From the NCBI RefSeq assembly GCF_000214375.1, contig NC_015578.1, forward strand, positions 2,852,001-2,916,000: a stretch of 64,000 nucleotides of DNA, in the 5' to 3' direction. How positions within the stretch are numbered: the first letter of the stretch is position 1; every line of letters begins with the position of its first letter. The notes beneath the pieces are model-generated. The model saw only the letters and a list, made by a program, of their open reading frames with translations. It was not told the DNA's origin and did not search any database. Source of the DNA: Treponema primitia ZAS-2. GTDB lineage: Bacteria > Spirochaetota > Spirochaetia > Treponematales > Breznakiellaceae. The position numbers and the translations under genes are program-made. This document shows, piece by piece, positions 2,059 to 56,224 of this stretch.

Positions 2059-2171
2059 AACCAGGGTTCCCGCCTCGCGCCCCTGCCAGTCCCGGGATGA
2101 TGCCGAATGTTTTTTGTTTGCTATTCCTCATTGATCATTCCCCCGTGATGCCTAATTTCAAAAAAGATACT

Positions 2172-4314: not shown

Positions 4315-4339
4315 TTAATGTATATTCAGTCTATTATTT

Positions 4340-16948: not shown

Positions 16949-16949
16949 C

Positions 16950-24795: not shown

Positions 24796-24810
24796 GGCGA
24801 TCTTTCCTCT

Positions 24811-28701: not shown

Positions 28702-28847
28702 AGCGCAGCTCCTTGGCATAATGCAGCATGAGGATGGGTATTTGAAAGATACGGGATATATCCTAGTAAATCTATCGGAATTGGGGGGGGTAAGAAATGT
28801 ATCATAGTATTCCTATTAGATATATAATAAATAAGCTTCCACAACAA

Positions 28848-30008: not shown

Positions 30009-33000
30009 TTAGTTTTCCTGTTCTTCTACAAAATCGCCGTCCAGCTCCACTGCCTTTTCCGCCCTGTACTCCACCACCCCGTCGGGGGTATAGAGTTCCA
30101 GCCTGAACCGCAGATGGCCGCTTTCCCCAATCGCCACCTCCGCGGCTTCCCAGCGGTTTCCCTCCAGGGGCATCCACCCCTCATCGCCGTAGACCAGCCA
30201 GCGTTCCCGCAGGGGCAGACGGCGCCTGTACTGCCAAGGCTGTACCAGGGCTTCCAGGATGAATACCTGCGCGGGGAACTTGCCGACTAAAGTCGGTGTT
30301 GCAAGTTGCGCGGATTCCACAGCATCAGCCTCGACAATTTCCTGCCGAACCAGAATATCCGCAACAACGCTGCCCCGTTCCTGCACCATGATCAGGGGCT
30401 GGGACAACCCGGCTGGTGTGCCGGGAAGTTCCACCACAGCCTGAGCGCCGTAACGCCGCATGTAAACCGATACACCGCCGGGATAATAGAAGCGGTTAAG
30501 TTCCCCCCGCTCCTCCACAAAACCCCAAGCTGGAGGAGCTTCTGTCTTTTTGGGCAGGAAGAGGTAGACCACGGCGTCCCGCAGTACCCGGAAACGGATA
30601 CCAGCCCTTTCGTCCAAAAGCTCATCCCCTTCTTCCCAGAGTATGTACTCCGCCCCCAGGGTGTAGGACGGCAGCCTGGTCATGGCCGCAGTATCCCTGT
30701 GGCTGGATGATCCAATATCCATATCTTCCCCGCCTCTGATAAGGGGCATGCCGTTATGGGCATGGTACATCACGGCCCGTTCCGCGCCGTTTATCTCTGC
30801 ATGGTCAATCATAGAAACAGTCGACCTGTTGGGGGCAACCCAAACATCACAAGCCTGCCAGGAACCGCTGTTATCAGCCCGGTCCACCCCCCGGTAGAAA
30901 ACCCTGTATCCCCCTTCTTCCATAAAAACAACAGGTTCCCTGTAGATTTCCACCGGGCCATTGTTGACCCGGTATTCAATACGGGCTACACCGGACAGGG
31001 CATCCCGGGCCTTCAGGGTCAGTTCCCCCATTCCCTGATCGTACAATACCGAAACTTCCATTAGAGGAGGTTCAAAGTCAATTCTAATATCTTTACTGCG
31101 AATCTCTTCCCGATTACCCGCTTTATCCAGGGCATACCAGGAGTAATGGTGTACCCCCTGATCCGCAAAGACCACCGGGGCGGTATAGGCGCCTGTGGAA
31201 TCCCAAATCCAGTCTATACCGGATACACTATCCTGGACTTCCAGAGAGAGGGTTACTGTGCTGTTGTACCAGCCACCTTCCCTTTCAACCGGGCTAAGGG
31301 TAAAGGAACTCTCAGGCGCTCCTGAGTCAACTTTAAGTTGTACCTGCACATCTTTTCCCCTTAAGCCCCGGGTATCGACGCCATAGGCACGGATCATGTG
31401 TTCCCCGTCTTCCAGAACCAGGGACGCCGGGGCTTCCTCCCAGGAATCACTATTATGCTGCATGGGGATCTCCGCCGCATAGGTTTCAATATCCGTGCTG
31501 ATAATCTCAAGCAATGGGTTCTGGGTATACCAACCCTGGGAGCCATCGGGCGCAGCAGGGGTGACGCGCAGTTCTGTTACAGGGGCCTGGATATTCGGGT
31601 GACCCTTGAAGGCATGGATGACACCATCCGTGTCTGCGGCGTAGATACCCTCGTGGTAGAGGGCAAATGCGCCATAGGCCCTGGCATCCCGCCAGATACT
31701 ACCGCCGGTATAGCGGTTAAACACACTTAACCCTTCTTTGCCGGCAACAATGGTTTTCTCCTTTCCGTTCCCCGGTACAGCATCATCCTGCCCCGCGGCT
31801 CCGGTTTTATCCCTAAGCCCTATTTGCCTCTGCCACTGGAGCGAAAGATCATCCCGTTTATAGGAGCTGAGGCGCCCCCTGTCCAGCAGGGAGACTCCCG
31901 CTTCGGTTAGGGATATCAGGGTATCAGGGCTGTGGGCCCCCTGTACGCGCAGTATTTCTCTTAATTCATTGTCAAAGAGGATCAGGGATTCGGCTGTTAC
32001 CGCAACCCCACCCCGAGAATCCGCCCCTATGGCGAGTATCTCTTCTCCCGCATCCCAGGGCTTGCCGGGACCGTACAGGGGTATCAAGCGGCTCCCCTGT
32101 ATCTCATACAGGGTTCCGTATACCCACAAAGTTTCTGCTACTGGGATGGTTCTTTTCCTTTCCTCGATCAGGGTTCCCCGTGCTGGGTTTCTGAAAAACA
32201 AAGCCGTTGGCGTCAGCTCCATAAGCGTGGCGCCATCGCTACTGATAGCCAGTATCCCTTCCCGGGTCCAGAGCAGATTTCCTGTAAGGGGGTCACGGAC
32301 TTCCAAGGTTTCCCCTGTCAGAGCGTAGAGCCTGCCCCCGGCGCAGATCAACTGCCTGTAAAGGCCTTCAATTTTCCAGGCCTGGCTTCCATCCCTGATC
32401 CTGAGAGCCCCAAGGCCGCCCTGGCCGCGGATAATAATTAGATTTTCCACCCCGAGGATCTGTAATACCGGGGCATTGCCCTGAACGGTCCAAGCCTGAT
32501 CTCCTGAAGCAGGAAGATCCGATACCACCGACCGGCTCCGACCTCCATCCCGGCCTTCCTGGCCCCAAATTTCCTCCCACACAGTGATGGTGTAGGATCG
32601 GCTGTCCTTCCAGCCTTTGCCATCCTGCACCTCAATCTCCACCGGGTACTGACCCCGCTCCAGGGGACGCCCGCTGATAATTCCCCGGAGGCTCAGAGAA
32701 AGCCCCGGGGGCAGGCTGCCCCGGATAACCCGGTACTCGGTAATTCCCCGGGCATTACGGCTGATGATTTCGCCGGAATAACTCTGCTCTACATAGCCAT
32801 CCGGTAATTTAGAAGTAGTAATGATGAGGGAACTCCCGATGCGTACCGTAATTCCCTCAGTCACCTCAAAACCCCGGCTCCTTCCGCGGATGGCTATTTT
32901 CCACAGGCCGTTAGCGGCGAAGGGTTCAGCCCGTATCGTCAATCCGACCGAATCTCCGGGACGGATCTCTGATTTTTCCAACACCGCGGCAAATGGCGCA

Positions 33001-36000
33001 TTCTCCTCACATTCTGTGCTAAGTTCCACCATGTCGTCATACCCGCTAATAGTAATATTAATAGTTTTTCCTTCACCCGCAGCCAGTTCAATATCAGAGG
33101 CTGATGGGTACATGATAAAACCCCGTTCCCTTACAGTAAAGTTCAGGACATTACTTTCGTTCCCCCCCACAAGGATCCGGAGTTTCCCGCTTGCCCCATC
33201 ATCGGGGGTGGTGAACACTATTTCTTCTCCGGACCAGGACTTCGCCGGTATAACCTGTTCATTGAGGTACAGGGTTCCCTTTGAACCAAAACCGTACCCG
33301 TAGAGATGGACATCCTCACCCCTGTAGGCCGCTCTGGGGACAACACTGGAGAGCCGGGCAGAGGGCAGCTCTTCCCGTACTATGGTGATCAGCTCAAAAA
33401 ATTTCCCCCTTTGCCCTTCAATATTAATCTTGTAAATTCCCGGAGCGGCATTTTCCCTGGCCTCTACCTTTATGCCCCCGGTGGTCCGTCCTCCGGCAGT
33501 GAGGACCGGCAGGGGCAGACTAATATCCAGCTCATCGGGCTTCTCAAGAATACGGAAGGATAGGGGTCCCTCAAACCCATTCAGGGATAGTGCCCCAAAG
33601 GCATAGTTTAGCTTTCCCCCTGGAACAGTTTCTGCGCTAAGGGTATAGTTGGTAAGCCGCCAATCCGGCAGCAGCACCGTTACTGTGAACCGGGCCCTAT
33701 CTCCCCCGGGACCTTCAAGGGTCAATTCACCCTTGCCGTCCTTTGCCCTAAGCGCTTCCATGTCCCTGATCCTGGGCAGGAGTGCCCGTAGAAAACCGGG
33801 AGACGGATCCGCTTCAAGGATGGCCAGCTCTTCCCCTTCCCAAAAAACCCTGGAGCCGGGCATAAACCCGTTCCCATAGATGGTAAGAACATTTTCAAGC
33901 CCGGGGTCTATCTCAGCAGGCTCCACTGCACTGATATCAGGCTGCGGCCACCTTAGATCTATTACCAAGGTAAAGGGACTGCTCAAGGCGCCATTGGCCT
34001 CATTGAAAAGCTCCCAGGGATATTCGTAGAGTCCGGGGGTCATTGTTTCTGCTATACCCATATACCAGGGCATCTCAAAAATCGGACCGTCGATTCTTAC
34101 GGGACCTGCAAAATGGATGTTCAGGAAGCTATCCTGCTCCGCTCCTGCATAACGGGCTCCGATATAATCAGAGGCATCACCCTGTAACTTGAAATTTTCA
34201 ACCCTGCCCTGTATCCTGCCCTCCACAAATCCGCCTATTGTACCCCGAGCTTCGATCCGTTTTGAGTATACCGCCGGGCTGTTCCAAACCGGCCTTTCTG
34301 ATCCGAAAACCATGGTTACCGGATCAGACCAAGGACCGGCCTTGTACTCAGAATCCAGGGTGCAAATCGCGAAGGACAGTTCCTGCCCCGCTTCATAACC
34401 CGGGAGATCAAGGCTAGTAATATTACCCACATACAGTATGGATTCCGTATCCTCCCTGACATTCACTATTCTGAGCTTGTACCCACCTGTACGTCCTCCA
34501 TTGGCATTAGCCCACCGCAGGCTCAGGGTACCTACATTGGTTTCCGCAGCTGTTAAATTTGCCGGGGCGAGCAGGGGCAGATCGCTCCTTTCAACCAGGA
34601 TTTTTCCCGGAGCATACACCATGGGAGAAACCTCGGTTCCCGTGGTTTCAAACTCTGCGCAGATATAGTATTCCCCATCGCAAAGATCAAACACCGGTAC
34701 AGTCACATCAAAACTGCCATCCGCCCTGGTCATCCGGGTTCCCAATTCCATAGCCGGCAGCCCTTCTGCTTCCCGGGCAAAGATACGGAAAGAGCGCCCG
34801 CTCTGATCCGTTGTTCCCTGTACCCGCAGTTCCGAAACAACCTTCTCCAGCCCGTAGGAAGGCTCCCGGATATTCATCACCGGCAGAGCTTTGCTGCCCA
34901 GGACACTTAATTCATAGTACTTCTCTTCCAGCTCCTGCACCCGAAGCTGCCAAATTCCCGCTTCGTTTGAGGGGATAGAAAAAACAATGCCCCCCTCCAC
35001 AAGCACCGTTTCCATTCCCGGATACCCCTCGCGGTATTCTATCCCCGAAGGGGAACGTACCGTTAATTCAGGCGCCCCATCGGAGTACGTAAGGATCACA
35101 ATGAGCCGTTGAAGTCCTGAAGGGGGAATTTTATCCATTCTGCCATATTCCGCCTGGAGCATGTTCAGGGGCGCGGCTATATCCTTATTTCCCGGCGGGA
35201 CAAACACACTGTATATCAGATCATCATCCCCTGGCCGGTCATAGCTGTCCTGCGAAAGGGTATCCGGATTTTCACCGGGGACAAGTGCCGGCCTGAAGCT
35301 TTGTGTCCAGCTTGGTTTTTCTATTTGGTAGCTGGAGAGGGCGCCAAAGTCAAAGACCCCGGGACCCACAAATACTCCCACATACCCGACGAGAGGCAGG
35401 TCGACACTTCCTTTAAATCCTGATCTTCCGTTGCTAAATCTTCCAAAGTCCGCAGAAATTCTGGCAAGCCACATGTTACCGGTGGGTATTTTTATCAACC
35501 AGCTATTAATAATAGCGCCTTTTGCCAGGCCAAACCTGACGTACCCCACTCCGGATAAAATGGTGGTTCCTTGTTTATCAAAGATATAAATGGTAACCCC
35601 GCCTTCGGCGTAACTTAAGCTGACATAGAAATCCCCTACGAAACCCTGCCTACCCAGGGTAGCGCTCGTAGTGGCACTAATATTAAGAGCGCCCCGTAGT
35701 ACCAATGCAGTCCCCTCAAAAGCCCAGATACCGTTGGTAATATCCACCCAGACTGTGGGAGCCATACCAATGATAGTACCTCCATAGTAATCCCCTACAT
35801 GGAGCCCCATGACCAGCCGCGGCCCCTTGCTGTTAAACATCCCCCGATAAAAACCCGGTACCTCATCCGGGGGACCATAGGCAATGCCGCCCTTTATGCC
35901 GCTCAAAAACAACCCGCTATTACCCAGGGGAATACCGCCCATAGCCACGATATAAGAAAACTCCGCCTGCTTAAGCCCTAATGGATAGGTTGATGATTTT

Positions 36001-39000
36001 GTTGCAAAGGAAATAATAACGCCAATATTCCCTGCCCCGGGTATTAATACTGAACCACCGCCACCCAGGATATATTCACCATCGGTAATAGAGAATTCAA
36101 CCTGGATATTACTAAAAGATAAAACACCTACATCGAAACTCGGCAGTTTTATTGAACCCCCGCCGACCTGTAAACCATTGGCAGCCGAAAGGCTTACATT
36201 TTTCAGGGCAAGCTCTCCCTTAGGGGCAATAAAATCAGGAAGCTTCAGGGTAACCTTAGAAAAACTAATACGACCCTGGGAAAATTCCAAGGCAGGCTTA
36301 TCCATAATCAGGGTGAATCCGGCAATTACGGTTTGAATCTTCGATATCTCAATATCCCCGAGGAAGCTGCCGTTCTTTGGGTTGAATTTTGCATTCTTCA
36401 GAGCCACATACTGACCGCCGAAACTGCCAAAATTCGCAGGGATCTCCAGGCGGCAGCTTTTTAGGGTTACCCAGAACTGGTTTGAGCTGTCCCTTTCAAA
36501 GAAAAGTTCTTCAAACTTTACGGTAAATCCTCCAATGTTTATTGCAGCATTTGAAAAGCCGCCCTGTATATCCATCAGGGTACCGTCCCAGCTAAATTTG
36601 AGAACCTTGAGAGCAATCCTGATATTGGCTAACCCAGGATAATTTGAGGGAAATTCGGCGCCAGCGCTGAGGCTTAATCCTGAATTGCTTACTCCCAGAG
36701 AAGTAACACTGATTTTGATACCTCCAAGGATGGGAAACTCAAGCTTTGTACCGGTACTTAATCCCACATCAAAGGCCTTAAGCCCATCCTTGGTGGATAG
36801 CTCAAATTTTCTGATCTCAAGAGAGGCCTTACTAATTGCCTCAGGCAGGCCCGGCCTGGTAATACTGATTTTTCCACCCACGTCTATAAGGAATTCATGC
36901 CCTGTACCTTTTTTGAAGAAAAGACGTCCATTGCTTAAATTAACGGCATTGAATATTTTAACATTCAGCCCTTCAACACCGATATTAAGGTCTGCAATTT
37001 CCCCGGCAGTATTTATAGTAAATTTCCCTATATTAACAGTGGTTCCCCGGAGCCCTTCAGGAAAATTATCCGGCAGCTTCAGTTTCCCTGCAATGGATAC
37101 CTCCAGGGGACTCCCTTCTTGTTTTGAAATGGAAAAGGCGCCGTTCATCAGTTCCATAACATCGAAGAGTTTATTCTGCGGCAAAGCCGCCGATGCGGAA
37201 GCGCTTTTCAGCCCCGAAACCGTATCAAATTCCATAGCAATAGCGGTTTGCAGCCCCCCTATACCCGCAGGAAATTTACCCTCCTGAAGTATCACCGTTC
37301 CTGCAAGGTCAAATTTCATCACCTCTTTTTTGAGGGAAGCTTCAATGGCAATATCCCTCAGCTGAACCGCGCTGAAAGCATTATACACCTTCCCCTTTTC
37401 AGAATTGTATTTTGCTGTAAAGGACTGGATAACCCCATCAAAGCCTATTTTAAAATTGTTGATCTTCGCTTCCTGGCCGGCAAAAACATCAGGAAAACTG
37501 TTGGGTAGAATCAGGCTGCCCGAGAGGTTCAGAAAACCGGTCTGTTTTACCTCGTTCCAGTCAATACCGATGGTGAGTTTTGAAAACAGGTTCCCCAGAG
37601 CATTGGCGGTGGGCAGGGTAACTGATGCCTTCAAACGGGTAATTTCAAGTGAAGCAGTATCGAAAGTAAAAGTATCTATCTTTAAGGATGTTCCGGCCAC
37701 CCATTCGGGCATATCCTTTCCAAAGCTGATATTGCCTGCTATGCTCATGGCCAGGGACTTCTCCCCTTCTTTAAGCAGGGAGACGCTCCCCTTTTTCAGG
37801 CTCAGCCCCTTCATATACGGAATGATAGCCCCCTCAAGCCCATCGAGGCTGATATTCATATTTCCCAGGGAACCATCCCGGCGGATCTCAAAATTTTTCA
37901 CCTCCGCTGTTTTGCCTGCTATAAAATCCGGCATCCCGGAAGCGGGGAATTGCACTGAGCCGCTAAAAGCGATGGTCCGTTCGGAATTGACGCTCAGCCT
38001 GTTCAGGTAAAAATCAATGCCGCAGAACCCTATATTAAGAGGGGCCTTGCCCTCCAGGGTAATATCCGCAAATTCAAATTTTCCTGAGATGGGGTTGAAT
38101 TTGACATGGTCGATGTATGCGTTATCAACTTTGTATTCCACGGGAAACAGGAGCTTTACCTGCTCTGCGACAATCCAGGGCTGCCCCGCAGCATAGGTAA
38201 CCGAGACATTCCGGAAGATGAGATCCCAGACCCCTGCAAAGGGAACTTTGTACTCCCCATCCAAGTGTATATCAATGGATTTTATTTTCCCTGCAAGATC
38301 TGCCGTAAAATCGTTGATACGAATTTCCCTGCCCGCCAATTCTCCGGCTATATCCTGAGGAAGTCGAATGCTGCCCTCAAGGTTAACCAGCTCATTTTGG
38401 ATAGAAAAATTACTCAGCTTGAATTCCATATTCCACAGGGTAAAGGGGCTAACCTGGGCATTTTCCAGGGTAAGCTTCCCGGTATTAGAAATCCATACCC
38501 CATTGGCACTGATAGTAACACCCTCCATAGATACGGGCAGGGTTATCATGGTCTTTTCCGCCAGAAGGCCATTTTCATCCAGGAAAATATCCTCCATAGA
38601 AAACGTAAAACCCTGGGCGGTAAAACCTATCTTGTCAATTTTTTTCTCTATCCGGAATTCGCCATTCTGGCGGAGACCCACTTTTTCAAAATCAAAGGAT
38701 TTGCCACCCAACAGTTTGGGCAGGGTAATGGCCACCGACGCTTCAATGCCATCTTCGGAAAACCTTGTCTCGGTAATCCTAGCCCCTGAGCCAAATAGCG
38801 AAACTGAGATATCCTGTTTACTGATTACCCGGTTAAATAGTTTTCCCTCCAGACTGATAACTATCTCGCCTATATTAAATTCTATCTCCCGGTACAAAAC
38901 CTTGCCTAATCCAATCCGTATCCGGTCAGGATCAAACCTTATATTTTCACCCCTAATGGACCAGCCGGCGTAGTTGAACAGGGTACCTGTGTCCGGGCCT

Positions 39001-42000
39001 GCCCCTGTCAGGCTAAGATCCGGACGGAAATAGAATTTCCCTGCGGGGAAGGATATTTGCCGGTCCCCCCACTGGAATGTAAGGGAACCCTCCAGGGCGA
39101 GGCCGTCATTTTCTATCCCCGCATTTTTCGTCTCCATGGGGTACCCATTACGGGAGCTAAAGGAGATAGTTCTCCACTCTTTCTCTCCCAAAAAAACAGT
39201 ACCATCACAGTTAAACTGCGTTTTTCCAAAGAGTATATCAGGCCCGTTAATTTCCATTAACGAAAGAAGGGGATACGCTGCTTCCAGGACATAGCCTTCA
39301 TTCAGAGCTTTCAGGGAAACCCCATCCACAGAAAGGGACAGGCCTTTGATTATTAAAATATCCCGAACCTCCTGAAGAACACTGCTGGCAAAAAGCCCTT
39401 CCGGAGAAATTCGGCTTTCGGGAAATTCCAGCGTCCGGCTCCCCAGTTTTTCAGGCAGATTGATAAAGCCCCGCCCATTAATGCCTCCCCCGTCAAAATA
39501 CAATTCTTTATACTTAACATTCCATCCGCCGGCATTAAATTGACGGTTTCCCTTCGCAATGCCCTTTGAAAACACACCATTACTGTTTAAACTGAGACCG
39601 GTAAAAACAAGGGAACCGGAATCAAGGTTAGGGACAGGCTCCAGGCTTCCCTTTCCAATCCGCAGCAGCCCATCTTCAAACAGGATATTCTCGGCCCTGA
39701 GTAGGGCGCCGGCAATACCGAAGGCCCTTTCCCCGGGGTAATTTCCCCGGACAGCCCCGTCACTTTCAAGTTTTGCCCCGGTGAAATTCAGGAACCTTTC
39801 CCCGGTCTGATCGCTAATATCCGGGCTCAGGGGAACTGCAATGGTTCCAAATAAGCCCGGATCCATAAGCGCTGCAGAGCTGACCTTTAGCAATGAACCG
39901 TATCCGGGATCTCCTGAAAACTCGCCGGTAATGATCCCGTCACTGTATACCCCGTTCGGTTCACCTTCTTTCAAGCCGAGACCGTTAATGCCCAGCCTGT
40001 TACCCCAAATATCAATGGTTCCTTCCGCAACATATATGCCCTTTGCGCTAAGCCGCGTTTGATGGCCTGTTACGGCAAAGCCGTGGACAAGGGCAGAAAA
40101 CCCGCTTATCCCCGGGCCGGACTCCCAGTTAATACCTAAGTTGGTGAGCTGCGTATCTCCTGTTTTAAAAACCCCGTATAGGCCGGAGCTTAAGGTTCCT
40201 GAAACCATGAGGCGGCCCCGGGTATCAAAATATATGCTTGTCCCTTCAAATACTGCGCCGCCTTCAGGTATTGTAACCGTCACCAGAGCGCGGGAATCTT
40301 CGCCGGAAGTACCGGCGGCAAAATCAGGCCCGCACTTCACAAGGCCGGTCAGGGAGTCGATAATAAAATTGCGGATCTCCAGTTCCCTGGGCTCATAGCC
40401 CTGGGGAAGGGACAGGACAGCTTCGTAGATTTCCAGGGAACTCCCGCGCAGTCCCCCCTTCCGCACCCCATATACCGTATCCGCCATGGTAAGGTTCAGG
40501 GGTTTATCCGCGGAAATATCCAGTTCCGCACCAAGGTTCATGCTTGCCGGGTCCATACGGCTCTGGCGGAGCCTGAGGGTTTCCCCTTCAACGGCAGGCT
40601 CAAGGGAGATACCCAGGCGGTCAAACAGATCCCTGTCGAAGGACAGATCTTCCCCGGTAAACCATTCTCTGCCGTTTCCCAGGCCAAGTTCTTCAACATC
40701 CGTCAGGGTAAACCCAGACCCACTGCCGGTATAGCTTTCGATACTCCCTTTATTTCCAATAGAAACTCTGTTACTGCTTACAATGCTCATAGGCGGGTTC
40801 CCCACAGATGCGGTTCCCAGGGCTGCGGTACGGTCCTTTCTCCGGCCATCCTCAATCACCGGCCGGGTGTAGGCCGAATCCCCAACAGTGAGCCCCCGGG
40901 TGCGGTCAAAGCCGATCACACTCCCCTCCAAGGTAAATCCCCCTGAGCGGAGTTCGTATCTGCCGCTTCCGCTGCGCCCGCCCCTAAAAACGCCCTCCCC
41001 TTCATCGGTTTCTTCAAAAATCAGGAAATCCAGAGGCTTCCTGATTTCACTGCCATCAAAAACAGTAATACTACTCATGTCAATTCCATCAGGAACATGT
41101 AATACTATATCAGCATAAGAAGTACTTTCCTGGCCAATAATTCTCATACCGGTCAAGCGGTATCCGTTAATCATTTCCTGGTAGGGTATTGAATAGGTTT
41201 CAGGGACAGGAACATTCCCGGTGGCGCATGCGCCCCATTGCTCAGTGAAATTTCCTGCCCTGTCATAAGCTCGAAGAACCACCGTAAATACCTGGTTATC
41301 ATCCAGAGGTGAAATGATATATTCCTCTGTATCCGGCCCCAGGGTATAGCTCCTGGTAATACCATTATTGGTAACCAAAAGTGTCACATGATCGACCCCT
41401 GAGTCCCGGTCATCAAGCTTCCCCCAGAAAACCAGTTTACCCTTGCCGGTGATATTCTCAGCATCCGCAAAGGCAAGCTTAGTGTTTTTGAATTCCGGCG
41501 GAATAAAATCAACCTTAAATGAATTTGTCCCAAATTTCCGGTTCCCCGCATAGTCAATGGCCCAGACCCCAACATGCACAGTACCGGCCCCCGAATCACC
41601 CAGTAGATCCCGAAGGTTCGCCGTAATTACTGTATCCGGTGTATGATCCCAGAGCAAAGGATCTTCCGCCCGAAGTTCTGCTTCCCCGCCTGTACTGGAA
41701 ATTTCGCTGCTGGCATCACTGAGGCGGTAGCGGTACTCTGCAACCCCGGTCATATCCCGGGGTTTGTTCCACCGGATCAGGGTATCCCCCTGGTTATACC
41801 AGAAGGAACTTTCCGCCTGGGGTATTGCCTGTATACGAAGGTCCCCGGGGGCTTCGGTATCCACACGGAACCTGTAAAGCCCCTCAGAGCCGGCATTGTA
41901 ATTTCCGCCGATACAGGATACTGCCAGACGGTAGAATTCATACTCATCATTATCCTCAAGCTCCAGAGAAAGCCGGCCTTTTCCCTCCTGATCAGTATTA

Positions 42001-44942
42001 CTCACCAGCCCTTCCAGTATGGTTACCCCAGGCCCTTCTTGTCCCTCACGGATGATTAGCTTTTCCAGCCGGTACCTGTAGGCCCTGGCACCTGACTTTA
42101 TTCCAAAGGCAGGGGAGAAGGTGAATTCCCCACGGGATAAAAAGCTTGCCTGTTCCACAATCCGGGCTTCAGCATGGGTGCTGCTGCGTATCACCGGAGC
42201 TCCGGGACTGCTCTGATCCTGTAACAGAATAAAAGCAAGGGTATTACTAAAGTTACCTGCCCCGTCCTCCGCCCGCACATAGACGTAGTTAATTCCATCC
42301 CTAAGGTTCTTTAGGGCAAATTTATTTCCCTCCGACTGGTTCATTGGACTAAATACCGGCTGAACATCGCTTTTCTGGGTTGTCCCCCAACTATAATATT
42401 TTATTATTCCTTGATGCTCCTCTGCACCTTGCATATACTTGTCTATACCTGCTATGGTTACCAGGACGCCTCCCCCGGCGGTATAGTCATCCTTTCCAAG
42501 GATACGATCAGGATTATTCCCATCCCGAAATTCTCCGGCCCTAAGCTCCGGCGGGGTTCTGTCTATGATAAATTGATATTCTATCCCTTCACCACTGTTT
42601 CCAACTTCGTCGGTTCCCCCTGCCCTGATAGTATGTTTACCCTCAGCCAGGGAAGCCAGGGCAATTTCCATTGATTTCCAACGGGACTTTTCTAATTCCG
42701 TTTTGGCTCCGTCCAGGCGGTACCAAAGGTGTGTAATTTCCAAAAGATTATCAGCAGAACTTATAGTCACCGGCAGTTTTTCTTTCGTGCCATAGGGGGG
42801 TAGGGACAGAGAAACCTGGGGAGGGGTTAAATCTATATAGAACACCACTGCTTGTTTTGCACTATTGCCCGCCTTATCCTTTAGGGTAAATTCCTTTTCC
42901 CATTTTCCCTCACCGAGACTTTGCGCCTCTATGGTATATCCCCCGGGGCCGGATACTCCCGGAACAACAGAGTACCATCCGGCTTCATCAACTCCGCTGG
43001 AATCATCAAAGGCAGCGATAGTAATTTTACCCTGGGACGATTTATATGCCTCCTGAAGTATCCTTGGAGGAGTACGGTCCAGCTTGAAATAGAATGTCCG
43101 CTCCGCAATATTATTCGCATTGTCCGATGCTGTAAGAAGTACCTGGTAAGTTCCATCAGGCGCATCGTTTCTGAATGTTATCCGGGAGCCGTCATGGGTA
43201 AAGCCGCTAAAGGCCGATGAAAAACCGCTTTGGAGCAGAGTTTTTAATTCCACGGATTTACTTTTTACCCCCGTTCCCGGGTCAATAATGGTATAATCAA
43301 AATAATTCCGGTTAGTCCAAACAGCTTTCTCAGGAGTATCAGCGAGCAGTGATCCAGGAGATATAACCGGGGGAACATCGTCAACAGTAATGGTAATAGA
43401 CTGTTCCTGGATATTTCCAACCATGTCCTCAGCATAAACCTTAATAGTATGGTTTCCCCCGGCAAGGGACTTGACTGAAATCAAGCTATTAAAGACAGCC
43501 CCCATACGGGTTCCATTTAATTTTGTTTTATTTCCAGCATCCAAAAAATAGGCCAGGGAAGCAAAATCAAAACCGCTTCCCCAATCGCTGATACCCGTAA
43601 GTTTCAGCGGGATTTTCCAGTTCCCGTCTTCTCTGCACACGATTCCGTCCAGGGAAGCAGTAAATACAGGCGGGGTAGTATCAATATTAACCCTGCCGGA
43701 AAGATTGGCTTCATTGCCGGCCTTGTCCTTTGCCCGGAATATGGCGGTATGCGCCCCATCCTCGGTAATGGTTATCTTCCCCTGAAAACTACTAATACCA
43801 ACCCAGGAGCCATTATCCAGGGAATAGTCCAGGCTCGCCATACCCGAGAGCCCATCGCTTGCCTTGATTTCAAGGACCTCTTGTTTTTCTGCAGTCCAGG
43901 TGCCCCCCCTGTCACCTTTTAATTCCATTTCCGGCACTTTTTTATCCACACCGCAGATTATGGAAGCAGTACCTGTGTTCCCGGCTTTGTCTTTCACCCT
44001 AAAACGGACATCCATTTCTTCTTCATTTGTGATAGTGACACTGTTATTTGCCGCTGATGCCGAGGCCCATGACACACCGCCATTGGTAGAATATTGCCAA
44101 GACTGCCGGTCTAAACCGGAAAGGACATCGCTTCCAAGGGCGTCTAATCTGACAGAAGAACCATTTGTCCAGCCGTTTGCAGGATTTGCCATTATGCTTA
44201 CTGTCGGATTAGTGCGGTCAATTATAATGGCGCCGCTTTTTGTTCCTTCATTTCCTATATTATCTTTAACTTTAAAAGTAAGCGGATAGTTCCCTTCGGT
44301 CTTCAGAGTCACGCTTCCCCCGTTGTATTCCCCGCCATTGAGGGTATATTTCCATGTTGCTGTATTAACACCTGAACCACTATCGGAGGCGCTTCCGGTT
44401 ATGGTTATTTCATTCTGGTTGGTATAATACGTACCGGATATAGCCTTACCGCCTGAGTTTATTTCGACAGATGGGCTGGTGTTATCGGCGGAATACAAAA
44501 CTGAATGGTAATATGAATCTTGAATTATCGGCACGCTATAAACCGGCCTTGACTGTGTATGGGGTACAACATAGTGATCAATATAAAAATCTATCGATAT
44601 ATTTTGTTTTCCGATAGAACTTTTTACGTCGAATGAATCACTAATATTATTAATACCGCTCATATTACTATTAGTATCACAATCATAAAAAATAAGTGTT
44701 GTAATATAACTAGAATCAGTACTACTAATTGCTGTAACATTGATATCAAACTGAATACCATTCCCCTTGAAATAATTTTTATTGTTTTTTGTAAAATAAC
44801 TAGTGGCATTTTTCAAGGTAATGGTAATAGTATAATCATTGTCTATTTTCTTGGTATATACATAATCTGCTGCCATCAGCAAAGGGTGAATGGTAAGAAA
44901 AAGCAGGCAGCTCAGAATGGAATATTTAATGCGTTTAGTCAT
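30009..44942 (-). CDS. Giant secreted multidomain protein (4977 residues)
   Basis: Signal peptide: MTKRIKYSILSCLLFL to about residue 25. Approximate order: 150-1350, a dozen or more Ig-like repeats with the frame NIDTTPPVF or DRTPPRILQ and AEDMVGN or KDKAGN; 1380-3200, a very long array of short amphipathic beta strands with the recurring frame LP..f.G....I.nF.i..dG.i, resembling AsmA/TamB/VPS13-type grooves or a beta-solenoid; 3290-3560, a PPC-like and an FnIII domain; about 3670 and 3870, two IPT/TIG domains; about 4050, a putative Ig (He_PIG, GSLPPGLSLS); 4140-4450, a PQQ-like propeller; 4455-4690, two OmpL47/Ig-like repeats; about 4880, LATPTLVGKFPAQ from a family-A repeat. No catalytic motif. 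GGAGG precedes the ATG, inside the last codons of the upstream gene, so translation is coupled. Its first 500 bases are more AT-rich than the rest. Confidence 0.9.
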   Translation of the reverse strand: MTKRIKYSILSCLLFLTIHPLLMAADYVYTKKIDNDYTITITLKNATSYFTKNNKNYFKGNGIQFDINVTAISSTDSSYITTLIFYDCDTNSNMSGINNISDSFDVKSSIGKQNISIDFYIDHYVVPHTQSRPVYSVPIIQDSYYHSVLYSADNTSPSVEINSGGKAISGTYYTNQNEITITGSASDSGSGVNTATWKYTLNGGEYNGGSVTLKTEGNYPLTFKVKDNIGNEGTKSGAIIIDRTNPTVSIMANPANGWTNGSSVRLDALGSDVLSGLDRQSWQYSTNGGVSWASASAANNSVTITNEEEMDVRFRVKDKAGNTGTASIICGVDKKVPEMELKGDRGGTWTAEKQEVLEIKASDGLSGMASLDYSLDNGSWVGISSFQGKITITEDGAHTAIFRAKDKAGNEANLSGRVNIDTTPPVFTASLDGIVCREDGNWKIPLKLTGISDWGSGFDFASLAYFLDAGNKTKLNGTRMGAVFNSLISVKSLAGGNHTIKVYAEDMVGNIQEQSITITVDDVPPVISPGSLLADTPEKAVWTNRNYFDYTIIDPGTGVKSKSVELKTLLQSGFSSAFSGFTHDGSRITFRNDAPDGTYQVLLTASDNANNIAERTFYFKLDRTPPRILQEAYKSSQGKITIAAFDDSSGVDEAGWYSVVPGVSGPGGYTIEAQSLGEGKWEKEFTLKDKAGNSAKQAVVFYIDLTPPQVSLSLPPYGTKEKLPVTISSADNLLEITHLWYRLDGAKTELEKSRWKSMEIALASLAEGKHTIRAGGTDEVGNSGEGIEYQFIIDRTPPELRAGEFRDGNNPDRILGKDDYTAGGGVLVTIAGIDKYMQGAEEHQGIIKYYSWGTTQKSDVQPVFSPMNQSEGNKFALKNLRDGINYVYVRAEDGAGNFSNTLAFILLQDQSSPGAPVIRSSTHAEARIVEQASFLSRGEFTFSPAFGIKSGARAYRYRLEKLIIREGQEGPGVTILEGLVSNTDQEGKGRLSLELEDNDEYEFYRLAVSCIGGNYNAGSEGLYRFRVDTEAPGDLRIQAIPQAESSFWYNQGDTLIRWNKPRDMTGVAEYRYRLSDASSEISSTGGEAELRAEDPLLWDHTPDTVITANLRDLLGDSGAGTVHVGVWAIDYAGNRKFGTNSFKVDFIPPEFKNTKLAFADAENITGKGKLVFWGKLDDRDSGVDHVTLLVTNNGITRSYTLGPDTEEYIISPLDDNQVFTVVLRAYDRAGNFTEQWGACATGNVPVPETYSIPYQEMINGYRLTGMRIIGQESTSYADIVLHVPDGIDMSSITVFDGSEIRKPLDFLIFEETDEGEGVFRGGRSGSGRYELRSGGFTLEGSVIGFDRTRGLTVGDSAYTRPVIEDGRRKDRTAALGTASVGNPPMSIVSSNRVSIGNKGSIESYTGSGSGFTLTDVEELGLGNGREWFTGEDLSFDRDLFDRLGISLEPAVEGETLRLRQSRMDPASMNLGAELDISADKPLNLTMADTVYGVRKGGLRGSSLEIYEAVLSLPQGYEPRELEIRNFIIDSLTGLVKCGPDFAAGTSGEDSRALVTVTIPEGGAVFEGTSIYFDTRGRLMVSGTLSSGLYGVFKTGDTQLTNLGINWESGPGISGFSALVHGFAVTGHQTRLSAKGIYVAEGTIDIWGNRLGINGLGLKEGEPNGVYSDGIITGEFSGDPGYGSLLKVSSAALMDPGLFGTIAVPLSPDISDQTGERFLNFTGAKLESDGAVRGNYPGERAFGIAGALLRAENILFEDGLLRIGKGSLEPVPNLDSGSLVFTGLSLNSNGVFSKGIAKGNRQFNAGGWNVKYKELYFDGGGINGRGFINLPEKLGSRTLEFPESRISPEGLFASSVLQEVRDILIIKGLSLSVDGVSLKALNEGYVLEAAYPLLSLMEINGPDILFGKTQFNCDGTVFLGEKEWRTISFSSRNGYPMETKNAGIENDGLALEGSLTFQWGDRQISFPAGKFYFRPDLSLTGAGPDTGTLFNYAGWSIRGENIRFDPDRIRIGLGKVLYREIEFNIGEIVISLEGKLFNRVISKQDISVSLFGSGARITETRFSEDGIEASVAITLPKLLGGKSFDFEKVGLRQNGEFRIEKKIDKIGFTAQGFTFSMEDIFLDENGLLAEKTMITLPVSMEGVTISANGVWISNTGKLTLENAQVSPFTLWNMEFKLSNFSIQNELVNLEGSIRLPQDIAGELAGREIRINDFTADLAGKIKSIDIHLDGEYKVPFAGVWDLIFRNVSVTYAAGQPWIVAEQVKLLFPVEYKVDNAYIDHVKFNPISGKFEFADITLEGKAPLNIGFCGIDFYLNRLSVNSERTIAFSGSVQFPASGMPDFIAGKTAEVKNFEIRRDGSLGNMNISLDGLEGAIIPYMKGLSLKKGSVSLLKEGEKSLAMSIAGNISFGKDMPEWVAGTSLKIDTFTFDTASLEITRLKASVTLPTANALGNLFSKLTIGIDWNEVKQTGFLNLSGSLILPNSFPDVFAGQEAKINNFKIGFDGVIQSFTAKYNSEKGKVYNAFSAVQLRDIAIEASLKKEVMKFDLAGTVILQEGKFPAGIGGLQTAIAMEFDTVSGLKSASASAALPQNKLFDVMELMNGAFSISKQEGSPLEVSIAGKLKLPDNFPEGLRGTTVNIGKFTINTAGEIADLNIGVEGLNVKIFNAVNLSNGRLFFKKGTGHEFLIDVGGKISITRPGLPEAISKASLEIRKFELSTKDGLKAFDVGLSTGTKLEFPILGGIKISVTSLGVSNSGLSLSAGAEFPSNYPGLANIRIALKVLKFSWDGTLMDIQGGFSNAAINIGGFTVKFEELFFERDSSNQFWVTLKSCRLEIPANFGSFGGQYVALKNAKFNPKNGSFLGDIEISKIQTVIAGFTLIMDKPALEFSQGRISFSKVTLKLPDFIAPKGELALKNVSLSAANGLQVGGGSIKLPSFDVGVLSFSNIQVEFSITDGEYILGGGGSVLIPGAGNIGVIISFATKSSTYPLGLKQAEFSYIVAMGGIPLGNSGLFLSGIKGGIAYGPPDEVPGFYRGMFNSKGPRLVMGLHVGDYYGGTIIGMAPTVWVDITNGIWAFEGTALVLRGALNISATTSATLGRQGFVGDFYVSLSYAEGGVTIYIFDKQGTTILSGVGYVRFGLAKGAIINSWLIKIPTGNMWLARISADFGRFSNGRSGFKGSVDLPLVGYVGVFVGPGVFDFGALSSYQIEKPSWTQSFRPALVPGENPDTLSQDSYDRPGDDDLIYSVFVPPGNKDIAAPLNMLQAEYGRMDKIPPSGLQRLIVILTYSDGAPELTVRSPSGIEYREGYPGMETVLVEGGIVFSIPSNEAGIWQLRVQELEEKYYELSVLGSKALPVMNIREPSYGLEKVVSELRVQGTTDQSGRSFRIFAREAEGLPAMELGTRMTRADGSFDVTVPVFDLCDGEYYICAEFETTGTEVSPMVYAPGKILVERSDLPLLAPANLTAAETNVGTLSLRWANANGGRTGGYKLRIVNVREDTESILYVGNITSLDLPGYEAGQELSFAICTLDSEYKAGPWSDPVTMVFGSERPVWNSPAVYSKRIEARGTIGGFVEGRIQGRVENFKLQGDASDYIGARYAGAEQDSFLNIHFAGPVRIDGPIFEMPWYMGIAETMTPGLYEYPWELFNEANGALSSPFTLVIDLRWPQPDISAVEPAEIDPGLENVLTIYGNGFMPGSRVFWEGEELAILEADPSPGFLRALLPRIRDMEALRAKDGKGELTLEGPGGDRARFTVTVLLPDWRLTNYTLSAETVPGGKLNYAFGALSLNGFEGPLSFRILEKPDELDISLPLPVLTAGGRTTGGIKVEARENAAPGIYKINIEGQRGKFFELITIVREELPSARLSSVVPRAAYRGEDVHLYGYGFGSKGTLYLNEQVIPAKSWSGEEIVFTTPDDGASGKLRILVGGNESNVLNFTVRERGFIMYPSASDIELAAGEGKTINITISGYDDMVELSTECEENAPFAAVLEKSEIRPGDSVGLTIRAEPFAANGLWKIAIRGRSRGFEVTEGITVRIGSSLIITTSKLPDGYVEQSYSGEIISRNARGITEYRVIRGSLPPGLSLSLRGIISGRPLERGQYPVEIEVQDGKGWKDSRSYTITVWEEIWGQEGRDGGRSRSVVSDLPASGDQAWTVQGNAPVLQILGVENLIIIRGQGGLGALRIRDGSQAWKIEGLYRQLICAGGRLYALTGETLEVRDPLTGNLLWTREGILAISSDGATLMELTPTALFFRNPARGTLIEERKRTIPVAETLWVYGTLYEIQGSRLIPLYGPGKPWDAGEEILAIGADSRGGVAVTAESLILFDNELREILRVQGAHSPDTLISLTEAGVSLLDRGRLSSYKRDDLSLQWQRQIGLRDKTGAAGQDDAVPGNGKEKTIVAGKEGLSVFNRYTGGSIWRDARAYGAFALYHEGIYAADTDGVIHAFKGHPNIQAPVTELRVTPAAPDGSQGWYTQNPLLEIISTDIETYAAEIPMQHNSDSWEEAPASLVLEDGEHMIRAYGVDTRGLRGKDVQVQLKVDSGAPESSFTLSPVEREGGWYNSTVTLSLEVQDSVSGIDWIWDSTGAYTAPVVFADQGVHHYSWYALDKAGNREEIRSKDIRIDFEPPLMEVSVLYDQGMGELTLKARDALSGVARIEYRVNNGPVEIYREPVVFMEEGGYRVFYRGVDRADNSGSWQACDVWVAPNRSTVSMIDHAEINGAERAVMYHAHNGMPLIRGGEDMDIGSSSHRDTAAMTRLPSYTLGAEYILWEEGDELLDERAGIRFRVLRDAVVYLFLPKKTEAPPAWGFVEERGELNRFYYPGGVSVYMRRYGAQAVVELPGTPAGLSQPLIMVQERGSVVADILVRQEIVEADAVESAQLATPTLVGKFPAQVFILEALVQPWQYRRRLPLRERWLVYGDEGWMPLEGNRWEAAEVAIGESGHLRFRLELYTPDGVVEYRAEKAVELDGDFVEEQEN
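30269..30311 (-). repeat. Family-A element, long form, in frame inside the giant gene
   Basis: In minus orientation: GCGCAACTTGCAACA, inner stem CCGACTTTAGTCGG, then CAAGTTCCCCGCGC. It is read as QLATPTLVGKFPAQ, and the protein continues for about 87 further residues. Confidence 0.9.
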
Positions 44943-44945: not shown

Positions 44946-46487
44946 CTATTCCTCCATGCGGTAAAGACGGACTCTATTCTTTGCCCAGGTTGCCAGATAT
45001 ATAACGCCGTTAAGCCTGATACTCCAGGCATGACTTTGTTTTTCCAAAAACTGATTTTCCCCCGATTCGGTTTGAAAGAAGGCTAGCGCCTCAGGAGAAA
45101 CGGCGGCTATAACTTTAGCTTCGGTATAGAAGGGGTTAAGTGCGGGAATTTCAGTGGGATGCCAATCAGACCCGGGCAAGGCGGCTGAAATAGCCGGTTC
45201 CTGTAAAACTATCCAGGCGCCTGCTGCGCTTTCAAAACGGCAATGAACCAGAATAGCAGAAACGCTGTTTTTTTGACCTGCTGAACCAGAAATAACGCTG
45301 AGGACATACAATTCCGGTGACTCATTCCCGCCCGTATAAAGTATCCTGACCGGTTTCCCCGGGATTTGCAGGCGGTTATCCTTTATAAGGACTCCATCCG
45401 AACTGATAAGGGCGTTACGCCAAGCCTCCTCACGACAGTACAGCAGAGAAATCCGGTTATCATCGGTAATGAAAATATCCAGCAGTTCTCCTGGGGGCAG
45501 GGAATACAACAGTTTTAATACGGGCACACCGGAACTTTCGCGGGTCACCGCATAAAGCAATTCCTCACCATTGGCCTGGCCTATCAATAATCCCATGGAA
45601 GCTCCGGTCCCAAAGACAGATCTATATTGCAGGACCTTCACCGGTGCTGTGAAATGCAGATATTTTGTAAAGGCGCCATCCTTGCCCTGGTACAGCACAA
45701 TATCCCTGTCCCGGCAGAGGGTAAAAACCGATATTCCGGTGGGGAAAATCCGGCAATCCAGCCGGGAAGTGGCGGAGGAACCTCCTGTTTTTTCCCGAAT
45801 CAGGCGCCCCTGGGTTCCCACAGAAAAAAGGGTTATTTCCCACTGATCATCATAAAAGTTGCGGTACCAGCCATAGTTTATCCCACCCATACCATAAAAA
45901 AAATCAAAGGCATCTACCTGTTCAGAAGGGGAAGAAATTTCCTCTCTGGTCCAAGGACGATCCTCCCTACCGGGCCCGGTAAGTAAATAGAGGCGTCCCC
46001 CGGCAAGTATGCTGACAAGAACTTCACCCTCAGGAGAACAGCCCAGGGAGTAGTCGAATATGGAAGCAGCGCCGAATCTCTCTTCGGCAAAGTAGCAGGA
46101 ATATTCCCCCCGGTGGGTAACACCAAAAATATACAGCCCATCATTTCCGTCCTTTTTTCCGATAAAGGCGGTATACTGCTCCGGCTCACCGGTCATAAGC
46201 TTGAGGTTCCTGACGCTGATCCCCGGGCTTTCAAACCCTTCCGGGTCATATAAGCGGGGCTCTTCATCCCTACCCATCTTCAGGACCCGGAATTCCCGAT
46301 CCGCAATATAGGGTATATACACGCCTCCGTCCAAATCGTGGACCACCTGCATTTCCGTAACCCTACGTTCCTCCGGCCAGAACCCAACCGGCAAGGCCGC
46401 TGGCAGCGCAGCCGTAAAACCATTTTCTTGCCCGTACAGGGTAAGCCCCGCCAGAAAAACAAGAATACCTGTGATAAAGCCCTTCAT
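44946..46487 (-). CDS. Exported beta-propeller-like partner of the giant protein
   Basis: 513 residues from ATG 46487, selected for GGGAGG seven bases upstream and a signal peptide starting MKGFITGILVFLAGLTLYGQ. The remainder has repeated four-strand-like blocks (YTAFIGKKDGNDGLYIFGV, VLVSILAGGRLYLLTGPG, ALISSDGVLIKDNRL), suggesting a six- or seven-bladed propeller. Only patterns, not a named family, support this. It ends three bases before the giant gene's ATG, whose ribosome-binding site is in its final codons. The two are therefore made together and likely act as a complex or secretion partners. Confidence 0.7.
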   Translation of the reverse strand: MKGFITGILVFLAGLTLYGQENGFTAALPAALPVGFWPEERRVTEMQVVHDLDGGVYIPYIADREFRVLKMGRDEEPRLYDPEGFESPGISVRNLKLMTGEPEQYTAFIGKKDGNDGLYIFGVTHRGEYSCYFAEERFGAASIFDYSLGCSPEGEVLVSILAGGRLYLLTGPGREDRPWTREEISSPSEQVDAFDFFYGMGGINYGWYRNFYDDQWEITLFSVGTQGRLIREKTGGSSATSRLDCRIFPTGISVFTLCRDRDIVLYQGKDGAFTKYLHFTAPVKVLQYRSVFGTGASMGLLIGQANGEELLYAVTRESSGVPVLKLLYSLPPGELLDIFITDDNRISLLYCREEAWRNALISSDGVLIKDNRLQIPGKPVRILYTGGNESPELYVLSVISGSAGQKNSVSAILVHCRFESAAGAWIVLQEPAISAALPGSDWHPTEIPALNPFYTEAKVIAAVSPEALAFFQTESGENQFLEKQSHAWSIRLNGVIYLATWAKNRVRLYRMEE

Positions 46488-46599
46488 GTCCGCCTCCCAA
46501 GTGCGATGTGCTATTTTGGGGAGAAAAAACATTTCCCCTTTCACACACCCTTAGCGGACCCTTATTTAATTTGCTTTAACCGGAAGGAAAAATATTTTT

Positions 46600-46641: not shown

Positions 46642-47079
46642 TCAGGCACAAAACCTGCTCAGAAAAAACACCCCCACTGTTCCGGCGGTCATGAATGGGG
46701 CGAAGGGCAAGGGGCGGCGGAACTGATCCTTCTTGAAAAGCCTCAGGAAGAGGAAGCCCAGTATCCCTGCGAGGCTTGCGCCGAGGAAGGCAAGACTGAC
46801 CCAGGGGCCGCAGCATAAACCCATGAGGGCGGCGAATTTGACATCCCCCAGGCCGAGCCCTCCGGCTATTTTTCGGATAAAAAGGAAAAAAAGAACGCTC
46901 AGCACTGCTGCCCCTATTCCACCGGGCAGGGAGCGGGGGCTTACCAGCGCCTGAACCAGCAATGCCGCCCCAAGGCCGGGAAAGATGAGCCGATCCGGGA
47001 TGCGGAAACTCCGTATATCGATCCAGGAGGCAGGCAGGGCGAAGAATAAAAATGTCAGAAATACCGGCAAGGCCATCAT
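46642..47079 (-). CDS. Prepilin peptidase (A24 family, short form)
   Basis: 145 residues from ATG 47079 with GAGGGAC upstream. Polytopic. The two aspartates of type IV prepilin peptidases are in WIDIRSFRIPD and GLGLGDVKFAALMG (GxGD). There is no N-terminal methyltransferase domain with its CxxC motifs, so it resembles the short TadV/CpaA-type enzymes. It sits divergently next to the secretion operon, which encodes at least three proteins with prepilin cleavage motifs, and should process them at the inner membrane. Confidence 0.9.
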   Translation of the reverse strand: MMALPVFLTFLFFALPASWIDIRSFRIPDRLIFPGLGAALLVQALVSPRSLPGGIGAAVLSVLFFLFIRKIAGGLGLGDVKFAALMGLCCGPWVSLAFLGASLAGILGFLFLRLFKKDQFRRPLPFAPFMTAGTVGVFFLSRFCA

Positions 47080-47284
47080 TGTCCCTCGCTTAATAATACT
47101 CCCCTTCCACAAAAAAACAACTAAAATATTTTTAAATATTTTTACATTCCGTTAAAGCATTTTTTCACTTTTCACCCCTAAAGGGGGTATTCCGGCAGCC
47201 ATGTACTGCGGGACAGCTTCAGAAACACTTTTCTTAATGGATGTGTTCCGGGGCAAAAAAATTTTGAAGAAAACAGGTAGTAAT

Positions 47285-49258
47285 ATGAAGCAAAGGATCT
47301 TCTTTCTAATCCTGACGGCCCTGTCCCTGAGCCAGGGCCTCCATGCCCAGCGGATGAGGAGTATGGATTTCCGGAATCAGCGTATAAGCGATATCCTCAT
47401 GGCCCTGGCAGAAATTTCAGGGACCTCCATCATAGCCGATGAAACCGTGGAAGGATCGGCTTCCTTCCACTTTACTGATTCGGATTTTGAAGAGTCCCTG
47501 AAATCGTTTCTTTCCTCTTATAATCTTTTCTATAAAAAGGATGGAAACATCATTCGTGTTTCCCGGGTAGACGCATCCCTGAACAGTGTGACAGGCCTTG
47601 TCACCATGAGGGCCCGGGAGCTGGAGCTGGAAAGCCTTGTCCAGACCCTGGCCCGGATATGGAACACCACCATACTCTACGATCTTCTGCCCAACACTAC
47701 CCTTACGGTGGACATGGAGGGGCTTCGCCCGGAGCAGGCCCTGGATATTTTTCTCCGCAAACTTCCTGAGTTTGCCCTGGAGAAAGGGGATTCCTATTAC
47801 TATATACGCCGCAGCAGCCAGGGCACACCCCGTCTTTCCGCATCGGGAAGAGAAATCAGCCGCTCAGGGGATCAGTACGCCATAGCCCTGGAAAACGCCC
47901 GGTTTCTGGAACTGCTCCCGGAGCTTTTCAAAAAGGCAGATCTGGAATACGCCATTATGACCAAAACAGATACCATGCTGGAAAATCTTTACTATACCGG
48001 AAAGGACTTCGACACCCTGCTGGGGATTATCTTGGAACAGGGAAACGCTGATTATGTGGTCCGGGACAATATCTACTATGTCATTGAATTACAGCGCAGG
48101 GATATTATCAAAAAATTCAGAGAGACAAAACTTGTCACACTAAACTACTTATCGGCCCAGGAAATTCCCGCCCTCCTTCCTTCTGAATTGGGGGCAGGAA
48201 ACAGTATTAAAATTGATAAAGGCTCCAACACAGTTATAGTTACAGGTACCGGAGCGGAGATAAACCCTATTGTTTCCTTTATTGAACAGATAGACCGGCC
48301 CGGGGAAAACTGGCCGGTAAGCCTGAAGTACCTTAAAACCGAAGAATTACTCAAGACCCTGCCCCCATCGATAGGAAAGGAAGAAATTCTTGCCTCAGGT
48401 TTTCCCAACCTGGTATTTTTTACCGGCCCCAGGGAAAAGCGGGAAATTTTTCTGAAGGAACTGGCCCTTATCGACCGGCCCAGGCCGCAGATCCGCTATG
48501 AACTTTTGGTGATAGAATATTTGAAAAACAGCGAAATCCGCAGCAGCGGCGGAATTTCTGCAAACAACCCATCAAAATCCGATGATCTTTCATTCCTGGG
48601 AAGTCTGTCCAATGTAATGAACCTGAGTTTTGATGTGGTTGCCCAGTTCGGTTACCAGTTTGCAGCAAACCTGAGCCTCCAGTTGGGGGAAAATACCGCC
48701 GAGGTCTATGCCAACACCACCCTGAACGGTCTTTCGGGGCAGGAAATTAAATTTCAGAATACCGATACCTACCGTTACCAGGAATTTGAAGTGGACGCCG
48801 ATACGGGAAATGTTTCCCGCACCGGTGTAACCAGGGAGATTAGCTCGGGGCTCATCGTATCCCTGAACGGGTGGGTATCCGGCGACGACATGATTACTGT
48901 TTCAGTCAACGCTACTGTGTCAAAACAGAACAACAATTCCCCCGGGGACACCACTGCCCTGCCAACAACCTCCGAGCGGGTGGTGAATACCCAGGTCCGT
49001 ACCCCATCGGGAAAGCCCCTGGTACTCAGCGGCCTCATGAAGGAAGGTACAAACAAAATCGTGAAAAAGGTTCCGGTTTTAGGAAGCATTCCCCTTTTGG
49101 GAAGGCTTTTCCGGGATCAGTCGGATACCCGGGAAAAGACGGAGATAGTCATTTACATAGTCCCCTATCTTTCCCGGGATAGTGATAGTGAAGGCCAGGA
49201 TAGCTCCCTGAGGCTTGAACGTTACTACCACAGTTTTATTGAGGGAAATATAAAATGA
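47285..49258 (+). CDS. gspD: Type II secretion secretin
   Basis: 657 residues from ATG 47285, where a signal peptide begins (MKQRIFFLILTALSLSQGLH); an in-frame ATG at 47201 with AAAGGGGG upstream would add 28 residues and hide the signal. N domains at about 25-230 (DFRNQRISDILMALAEISGT, then two STN/N1-like modules) precede repeated secretin N modules (LVTLNYLSAQEIPALLPSEL). The secretin C domain carries VPVLGSIPLLGRLFRDQ and TEIVIYIVPYL at the end. It forms the outer-membrane gate. The stop overlaps gspE by four bases. Confidence 0.93.
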   Translation: MKQRIFFLILTALSLSQGLHAQRMRSMDFRNQRISDILMALAEISGTSIIADETVEGSASFHFTDSDFEESLKSFLSSYNLFYKKDGNIIRVSRVDASLNSVTGLVTMRARELELESLVQTLARIWNTTILYDLLPNTTLTVDMEGLRPEQALDIFLRKLPEFALEKGDSYYYIRRSSQGTPRLSASGREISRSGDQYAIALENARFLELLPELFKKADLEYAIMTKTDTMLENLYYTGKDFDTLLGIILEQGNADYVVRDNIYYVIELQRRDIIKKFRETKLVTLNYLSAQEIPALLPSELGAGNSIKIDKGSNTVIVTGTGAEINPIVSFIEQIDRPGENWPVSLKYLKTEELLKTLPPSIGKEEILASGFPNLVFFTGPREKREIFLKELALIDRPRPQIRYELLVIEYLKNSEIRSSGGISANNPSKSDDLSFLGSLSNVMNLSFDVVAQFGYQFAANLSLQLGENTAEVYANTTLNGLSGQEIKFQNTDTYRYQEFEVDADTGNVSRTGVTREISSGLIVSLNGWVSGDDMITVSVNATVSKQNNNSPGDTTALPTTSERVVNTQVRTPSGKPLVLSGLMKEGTNKIVKKVPVLGSIPLLGRLFRDQSDTREKTEIVIYIVPYLSRDSDSEGQDSSLRLERYYHSFIEGNIK

Positions 49259-56222: not shown

Positions 56223-56224
56223 GT

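Follow-up and report, generated by a model that had tools for sequence, protein, structure and literature searches.

The chromosome of the termite-gut spirochete Treponema primitia ZAS-2 (a single molecule of 4,059,867 bases) contains, within the stretch of 64,000 nucleotides analysed here (the window), a gene for a protein of 4,977 residues. The locus raises the question of what such a giant does and, in particular, what kind of structure its long central region forms. A reading made from the sequence alone had described a repetitive β-core between about residues 1380 and 3200, and had likened it to the lipid-carrying β-groove proteins of the AsmA/TamB/VPS13 type or to a very long β-solenoid. 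The giant is encoded by one uninterrupted frame, as that reading had it (Table 1), and 15 other spirochete sequences contain full-length, colinear homologues of 4,100–6,440 residues. The domain order of the T. primitia giant is kept throughout these homologues, indicating that it is one conserved protein and not a chance shuffle of domains. The 6,440-residue frame belongs to a Spirochaetales MAG (locus L058). A search for related loci with an eight-row alignment produced 11 loci, all of them spirochetal, and a plasmid search produced no match to the giant. The giants come from several families and their tree is in broad agreement with family limits.

Table 1. Features of the giant protein gene and of the adjoining type II secretion cluster, in window coordinates.
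Feature	Position	Strand	Evidence and remarks
Giant protein gene, 4,977 aa	30009..44942	-	Single ORF, ATG start
Signal-peptide-like N-terminus, residues ~1-24	44871..44942	-	MTKRIKYSILSCLLFLTIHPLLMAADY, read by eye; homologues alike
Ig-like/OmpL47-type domain array, residues ~161-1245	41208..44462	-	NF047446, PF19077
Core, N half, decayed repeats, residues 1400-2074	38721..40745	-	hhalign; all-β model
Core, 12-13 clear ~70-aa units (4 strands + LP loop), residues 2075-2965	36048..38720	-	
Conserved non-repeat block closing the core, residues 2966-3205	35328..36047	-	38-60% identity to homologues
fn3, TIG and He_PIG domains, residues ~3206-4125	32568..35327	-	
Probable PQQ-type β-propeller, residues ~4126-4420	31683..32567	-	PF13360
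C-terminal OmpL47-type domains and tail, residues 4421-4977	30012..31682	-	NF047446, best stretch 4640-4700
Partner gene, 532 aa, signal-peptide-like	44946..46544	-	Directly upstream of the giant; conserved
Prepilin peptidase (A24)	46642..47112	-	PF01478, 52.9 bits (cut-off 26.5)
GspD-type secretin	47201..49258	+	PF00263, 102.9 bits (cut-off 27.5)
GspE ATPase	49255..50757	+	PF00437, E=2e-117
GspF	50757..51812	+	PF00482, E=7e-34
GspG major pseudopilin	51827..52306	+	TIGR01710, 119.8 bits (cut-off 88.9); PF08334
Minor-pseudopilin-like genes	52143..54020	+	N_methyl motif in 52495-53004; synteny; probable, assigned by position
GspL/GspM-like genes and TPR lipoprotein ending the T2SS cluster	53998..56890	+	Probable in part

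The core is flanked by OmpL47/Big-type Ig-like, fn3, TIG and He_PIG domains and by a probable PQQ propeller, in keeping with the sequence-only reading. The likeness to Leptospira OmpL47 is confined to the flanking Ig-like domains: NF047446 matches at 219 bits (cut-off 40) in seven stretches over the whole giant, all of them in the flanks and none in the core, and the giant lies below the OmpL47 equivalog threshold (156.7 versus 250 bits). PF19077 scores 97 bits, and the match of PF13360 to the propeller region (E=1e-5, 25.6 bits) falls below its cut-off of 27.6. The N-terminus, judged by eye, is hydrophobic with an AxA-like site and shows no convincing lipobox. The C-terminal regions align in most homologues, among which no polymorphic (variable) toxin tip was seen.

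The core is of a different nature, being a long repeat that is predicted to be all β and amphipathic. Cutting it at the LP loops gives clear units of 59–76 residues (mean ~69) that span residues 2075–2965 and have the consensus LP..LP.GL.G..h.I..F.I..DG.I..FDA, in which the motif reported earlier (LP..f.G....I.nF.i..dG) is recovered. An HMM built from units 1–6 only, taken from all homologues, detects units 7, 9 and 10 of the window protein at 21, 30 and 15 bits, respectively, compared with a best score of 3.6 bits among 50 shuffled sequences; unit 8 and units 11–12 gave no convincing match. The reverse HMM, built from the second-half units, finds unit 5 at 31 bits together with part of unit 3. 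In hhalign comparisons the unit region aligns with itself shifted by one unit (E=4e-49) and also with residues 1400–2070 (E=4e-10), indicating that the latter are a decayed form of the same repeat. The held-out HMM and the profile self-comparison exclude chance, and residues ~1400–2965 of the giant are a genuine tandem repeat. The repeat stops short of the C-terminal limit first proposed for it, since residues 2966–3205 form a non-repeat block with no hhalign match to the unit and no match in Pfam, NCBIfam or the PDB. This block is the best-conserved stretch of the giant and carries the signature GGIPLGxTGLxLxGIRGGxAYGPPDEVP. Searches of Pfam, NCBIfam and PDB sequences with the core, singly or as a 15-member profile, returned nothing, and no paralogue of it was found elsewhere in the genome. 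Shorter proteins with core-type sequence, in frames of ~580–1,170 residues, are present in eight genomes (G004, G011, G042, G092, G095, G167, G199 and G294), suggesting that the repeat module is able to stand without the flanks of the giant. The predicted four-strand β-repeat is a previously undescribed one that is found in spirochetes of several families.

AlphaFold models of two overlapping segments, residues 1390–2480 (mean pLDDT 82, pTM 0.37) and 2030–3210 (mean pLDDT 73, pTM 0.34), are all β with no long helix, concur at 96% of the residues in their overlap and show no division into compact separate domains, the outcome that the sequence-only reading had named as its own refutation. Four strands of ~10 residues each are predicted between successive LP loops throughout residues 2075–2900, with predicted loop lengths of 10–13 residues in the 12 clear units. 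The core is most likely to be a continuous antiparallel meander, with antiparallel pairing probably maintained throughout; at a pTM of only 0.34–0.37, its overall shape is not fixed by the models. A long β-solenoid of the parallel form, which would have short rungs of ~20–30 residues, is unlikely given the ~70-residue period, the four ~10-residue strands and the antiparallel character of the fold matches described below. Plain odd/even amphipathicity is not significant over residues 2030–2900 (z=1.6) or 1400–2030 (z=-0.3), and a recurrent h.h..h.h break in strands 1–3 masks the alternation. Allowing one β-bulge per strand gives z=12.4 for residues 2112–2900, in a test that grants its null equal freedom and is partly post hoc, having been devised after the h.h..h.h motif was known. 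With one hydrophobic strand face, the sheet would have to curl on itself as a tube, groove or flattened roll.

The neighbourhood of the gene offers a further indication of function, as it adjoins a type II secretion system (T2SS) cluster. The partner gene, which ends three bases upstream of the giant start codon, gave no match in Pfam or NCBIfam; in both family f1 and family f3 a homologue of it lies directly upstream of the giant (hhalign E=1.5e-10 between the two families), and the upstream gene in genome G011 shows no detectable homology to it. Within the cluster, TIGR02517 is the best NCBIfam match of the secretin, below its cut-off, and PF04612 matches weakly at 55139–55660, where the order of the GspL/GspM-like genes is the same in relatives. 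Of the 16 genomes of the order that encode the giant at full length, 15 have GspG, compared with 91 of the 378 others (Fisher p=1.6e-8, a test that ignores shared ancestry, so that the co-occurrence is partly confounded by phylogeny). The single GspG-less genome among the 16 is a 68%-complete MAG, and a further five giant-bearing genomes all have GspG, bringing the T2SS to 20 of 21. Of the 16 gene copies whose flanks are long enough to judge, nine, belonging to several families, are no more than ~15 kb from gspG, whereas random placement would achieve this ~1% of the time. The other seven are not near gspG (G380, G306, G005 and G300, the second copy in each of G107 and G668, and G511, where the distance is 48 kb).

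Among T2SS-positive genomes that lack the β-core giant, another giant of 1,831–3,514 residues is found near the T2SS in seven of ten loci examined, one such frame running off its contig after 2,407 residues. All five that were scanned contain RHS repeats (loci L082, L087, L090, L093 and L095 in genomes G032, G080, G186, G195 and G127), two of them together with SpvB and TcdB-middle domains; of the remaining two, that in G240 is RHS-like by eye and that in G052 was judged on position and size only. These treponeme giants resemble the β-core giant in their great size, signal-peptide-like start and location near the T2SS, whereas the β-core giant has no YD/RHS repeats, polymorphic tip or detectable sequence kinship with them: PF05593 does not match it but scores 80–260 bits in the sister RHS giants, and hhalign between these and the core gives less than 1%. 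The occurrence of different giants in the same T2SS neighbourhood fits exported cargo better than machinery.

Taken together, these observations lead us to favour, on balance and with some reserve, the view that the giant is a Sec-targeted exoprotein that is likely to be exported by the T2SS and displayed or released at the surface, with a stiff amphipathic β-core as a spacer. The signal-peptide-like N-terminus would direct the protein to Sec, and the neighbouring T2SS could then export it, perhaps aided by the ~500-residue partner, for display at, or release from, the cell surface. The core (residues ~1400–3205), with its ~70-residue four-strand units, would form a stiff and presumably rod-shaped spacer that keeps two arrays of Ig/OmpL47/TIG/propeller domains apart. 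A surface location accords with the OmpL47-type and TIG domains, and the domain types suggest adhesion; adhesion or scaffolding in the gut would be a likely task. A folded rod of ~530 kDa would, however, be an extreme T2SS cargo, and the seven of 16 assessable copies that are not near gspG also count against the T2SS-cargo view. The searched literature contains almost nothing on the T2SS of spirochetes, and no account of such a spirochete giant or of T2SS cargo in termite treponemes was found in it; giant exoproteins are now linked to this system. If this is confirmed, the spirochete T2SS would handle folded cargo that is among the largest known and is interchangeable with RHS-type giants.

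The β-core shares with the RBG superfamily (AsmA/TamB, VPS13, ATG2 and BLTPs) a very long repeating all-β meander with amphipathic strands, and could accordingly be imagined as a hydrophobic lipid conduit in the periplasm or between membranes. Foldseek matches of the core model to LptD (E=1e-6) and ApoB100 (E=8e-5) in the PDB, where VDAC and ushers were also matched, and to chorein/VPS13-type proteins among viral models (E=7e-5, probability 0.99, TM 0.10) point in the same direction. However, TM-scores normalised to the core model are at most 0.13, and structure matches to DDB1, SF3B, LptD and porins occur at similar scores, suggesting that matches of this kind are generic to long antiparallel β-structure. 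They are read here as local similarity between long antiparallel meanders and not as family membership; ApoB100 and LptD, which share a long amphipathic antiparallel sheet with the core by local structural-alphabet match, show no sequence match to it. VPS13 and TamB are not among the PDB matches listed, which does not count against them. The RBG unit comprises five strands plus a loop that crosses back (PMC7613979), whereas the predicted core unit has ~70 residues in four strands and a short LP loop. The core shows no kinship in sequence to 13 spirochete TamB proteins (hhalign probability 2.9%), TamB being the only RBG family compared profile-to-profile, and Pfam and NCBIfam scans of the giant and of 15 members gave no RBG/AsmA match; the T. 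primitia genome already has a TamB of its own. In contrast to RBG proteins, the core sits between extracellular-type Ig/OmpL47/TIG/propeller domains, no membrane anchor is evident, and its gene is linked to the T2SS, which favours an exported protein over a periplasmic lipid bridge. A groove protein does work with the T2SS in other bacteria: GspN, an AsmA-like accessory of Acinetobacter and Klebsiella with a single helix as its predicted inner-membrane anchor, helps the T2SS to move lipoproteins (PMC12802150). The giant, whose core may be of the β-groove type, resembles GspN in its association with a T2SS, but has 4,977 residues and a signal-peptide-like start and is missing from most T2SS-positive relatives. 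A conduit of this type is considered rather unlikely, and a lipid groove in the core is possible but not favoured. Of the AsmA/TamB/VPS13 relationship suggested by the sequence-only reading, some fold matches to lipid-handling proteins survive, while membership is not supported, given the four-strand unit, the TamB comparison and the low TM-scores.

Part of the core, especially the block at residues 2966–3205, might alternatively form an outer-membrane β-barrel that anchors the giant. VIA-align gives Z-scores of up to 12.9 with such barrels over residues ~2799–3113, but with a high rmsd (9–12 over ~250 residues), and other parts of the core give similar matches. The clearest simple hydrophobic/polar alternation does occur at residues 2900–3200 (z=4.4); against this, the pLDDT drops under 50 over much of residues 3107–3162 and the chain continues for more than 1,700 residues beyond the block, making an anchor of this kind improbable. 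Little probability is likewise given to a secreted or surface-displayed groove rod, exported by the T2SS, that would carry lipids or other hydrophobic molecules outside or between cells and would have evolved independently. Were it correct, the architecture of bridge-like lipid-transfer proteins would have a second, independent form with four strands per unit, and the core is a test case of whether long amphipathic β-rods outside the AsmA/VPS13 lineage bind lipids.

The genomic neighbourhood shared with the RHS giants, together with matches of the model of residues 1390–2480 to teneurin (E=1e-5) and TcdB–TccC (E=2e-4), could also indicate that the core is an RHS/Tc-like hollow shell around a cargo, as a remote relative or an analogue of those proteins. 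Propellers and outer-membrane barrels score equally in the same list, however, so that these matches look generic, and the missing RHS/YD repeats, the negligible hhalign probability and a C-terminus of conserved Ig/propeller domains in place of a variable tip make a shell very unlikely. Least probable of all is a structural or accessory T2SS component, since, despite its adjacency to and co-occurrence with the T2SS, the giant is missing from 91 of the 106 genomes of the order that have a T2SS, is distant from the T2SS in some genomes and has its place in the neighbourhood taken by unrelated RHS giants in others.

Downstream of the giant in family f3 come a protein of ~1,100–1,275 residues and then one of ~310–430 residues (L031/L043, L030/L042 and L036/L048), the latter with an SH3_3 domain in G107. 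These two proteins precede T2SS genes in G107 and G110, and the arrangement is possibly one operon. G107 contains a pair of closely similar giants, each with its partner gene and separated by ~280 kb (L031/L043 and L032/L044); only one of them adjoins the T2SS.

Other large genes are present in the window. Two adjoining ones at 14507–18872, of 813 and 640 residues, have TPR and resemble each other in their outer-membrane-like N-terminal parts; the first has an additional C-terminal LysM-like match. Two more at 22261–28719 encode exported-looking proteins with lipoprotein-like starts, one of 844 residues with GGGVYMDGGTFTMNGG repeats and one of 1,302 residues that matches OmpL47 weakly. The palindromic element ACTTGCNACNCCGACTTTAGTCGGCAAGTT, 30 bases long, is found at window positions 16911–16940 and 30277–30306 and has 30 copies in the genome at three or fewer mismatches, compared with none for the reversed control. 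One copy is translated in frame within the giant as ATPTLVGKFPA (residue 4881), part of a loop whose sequence varies among homologues.
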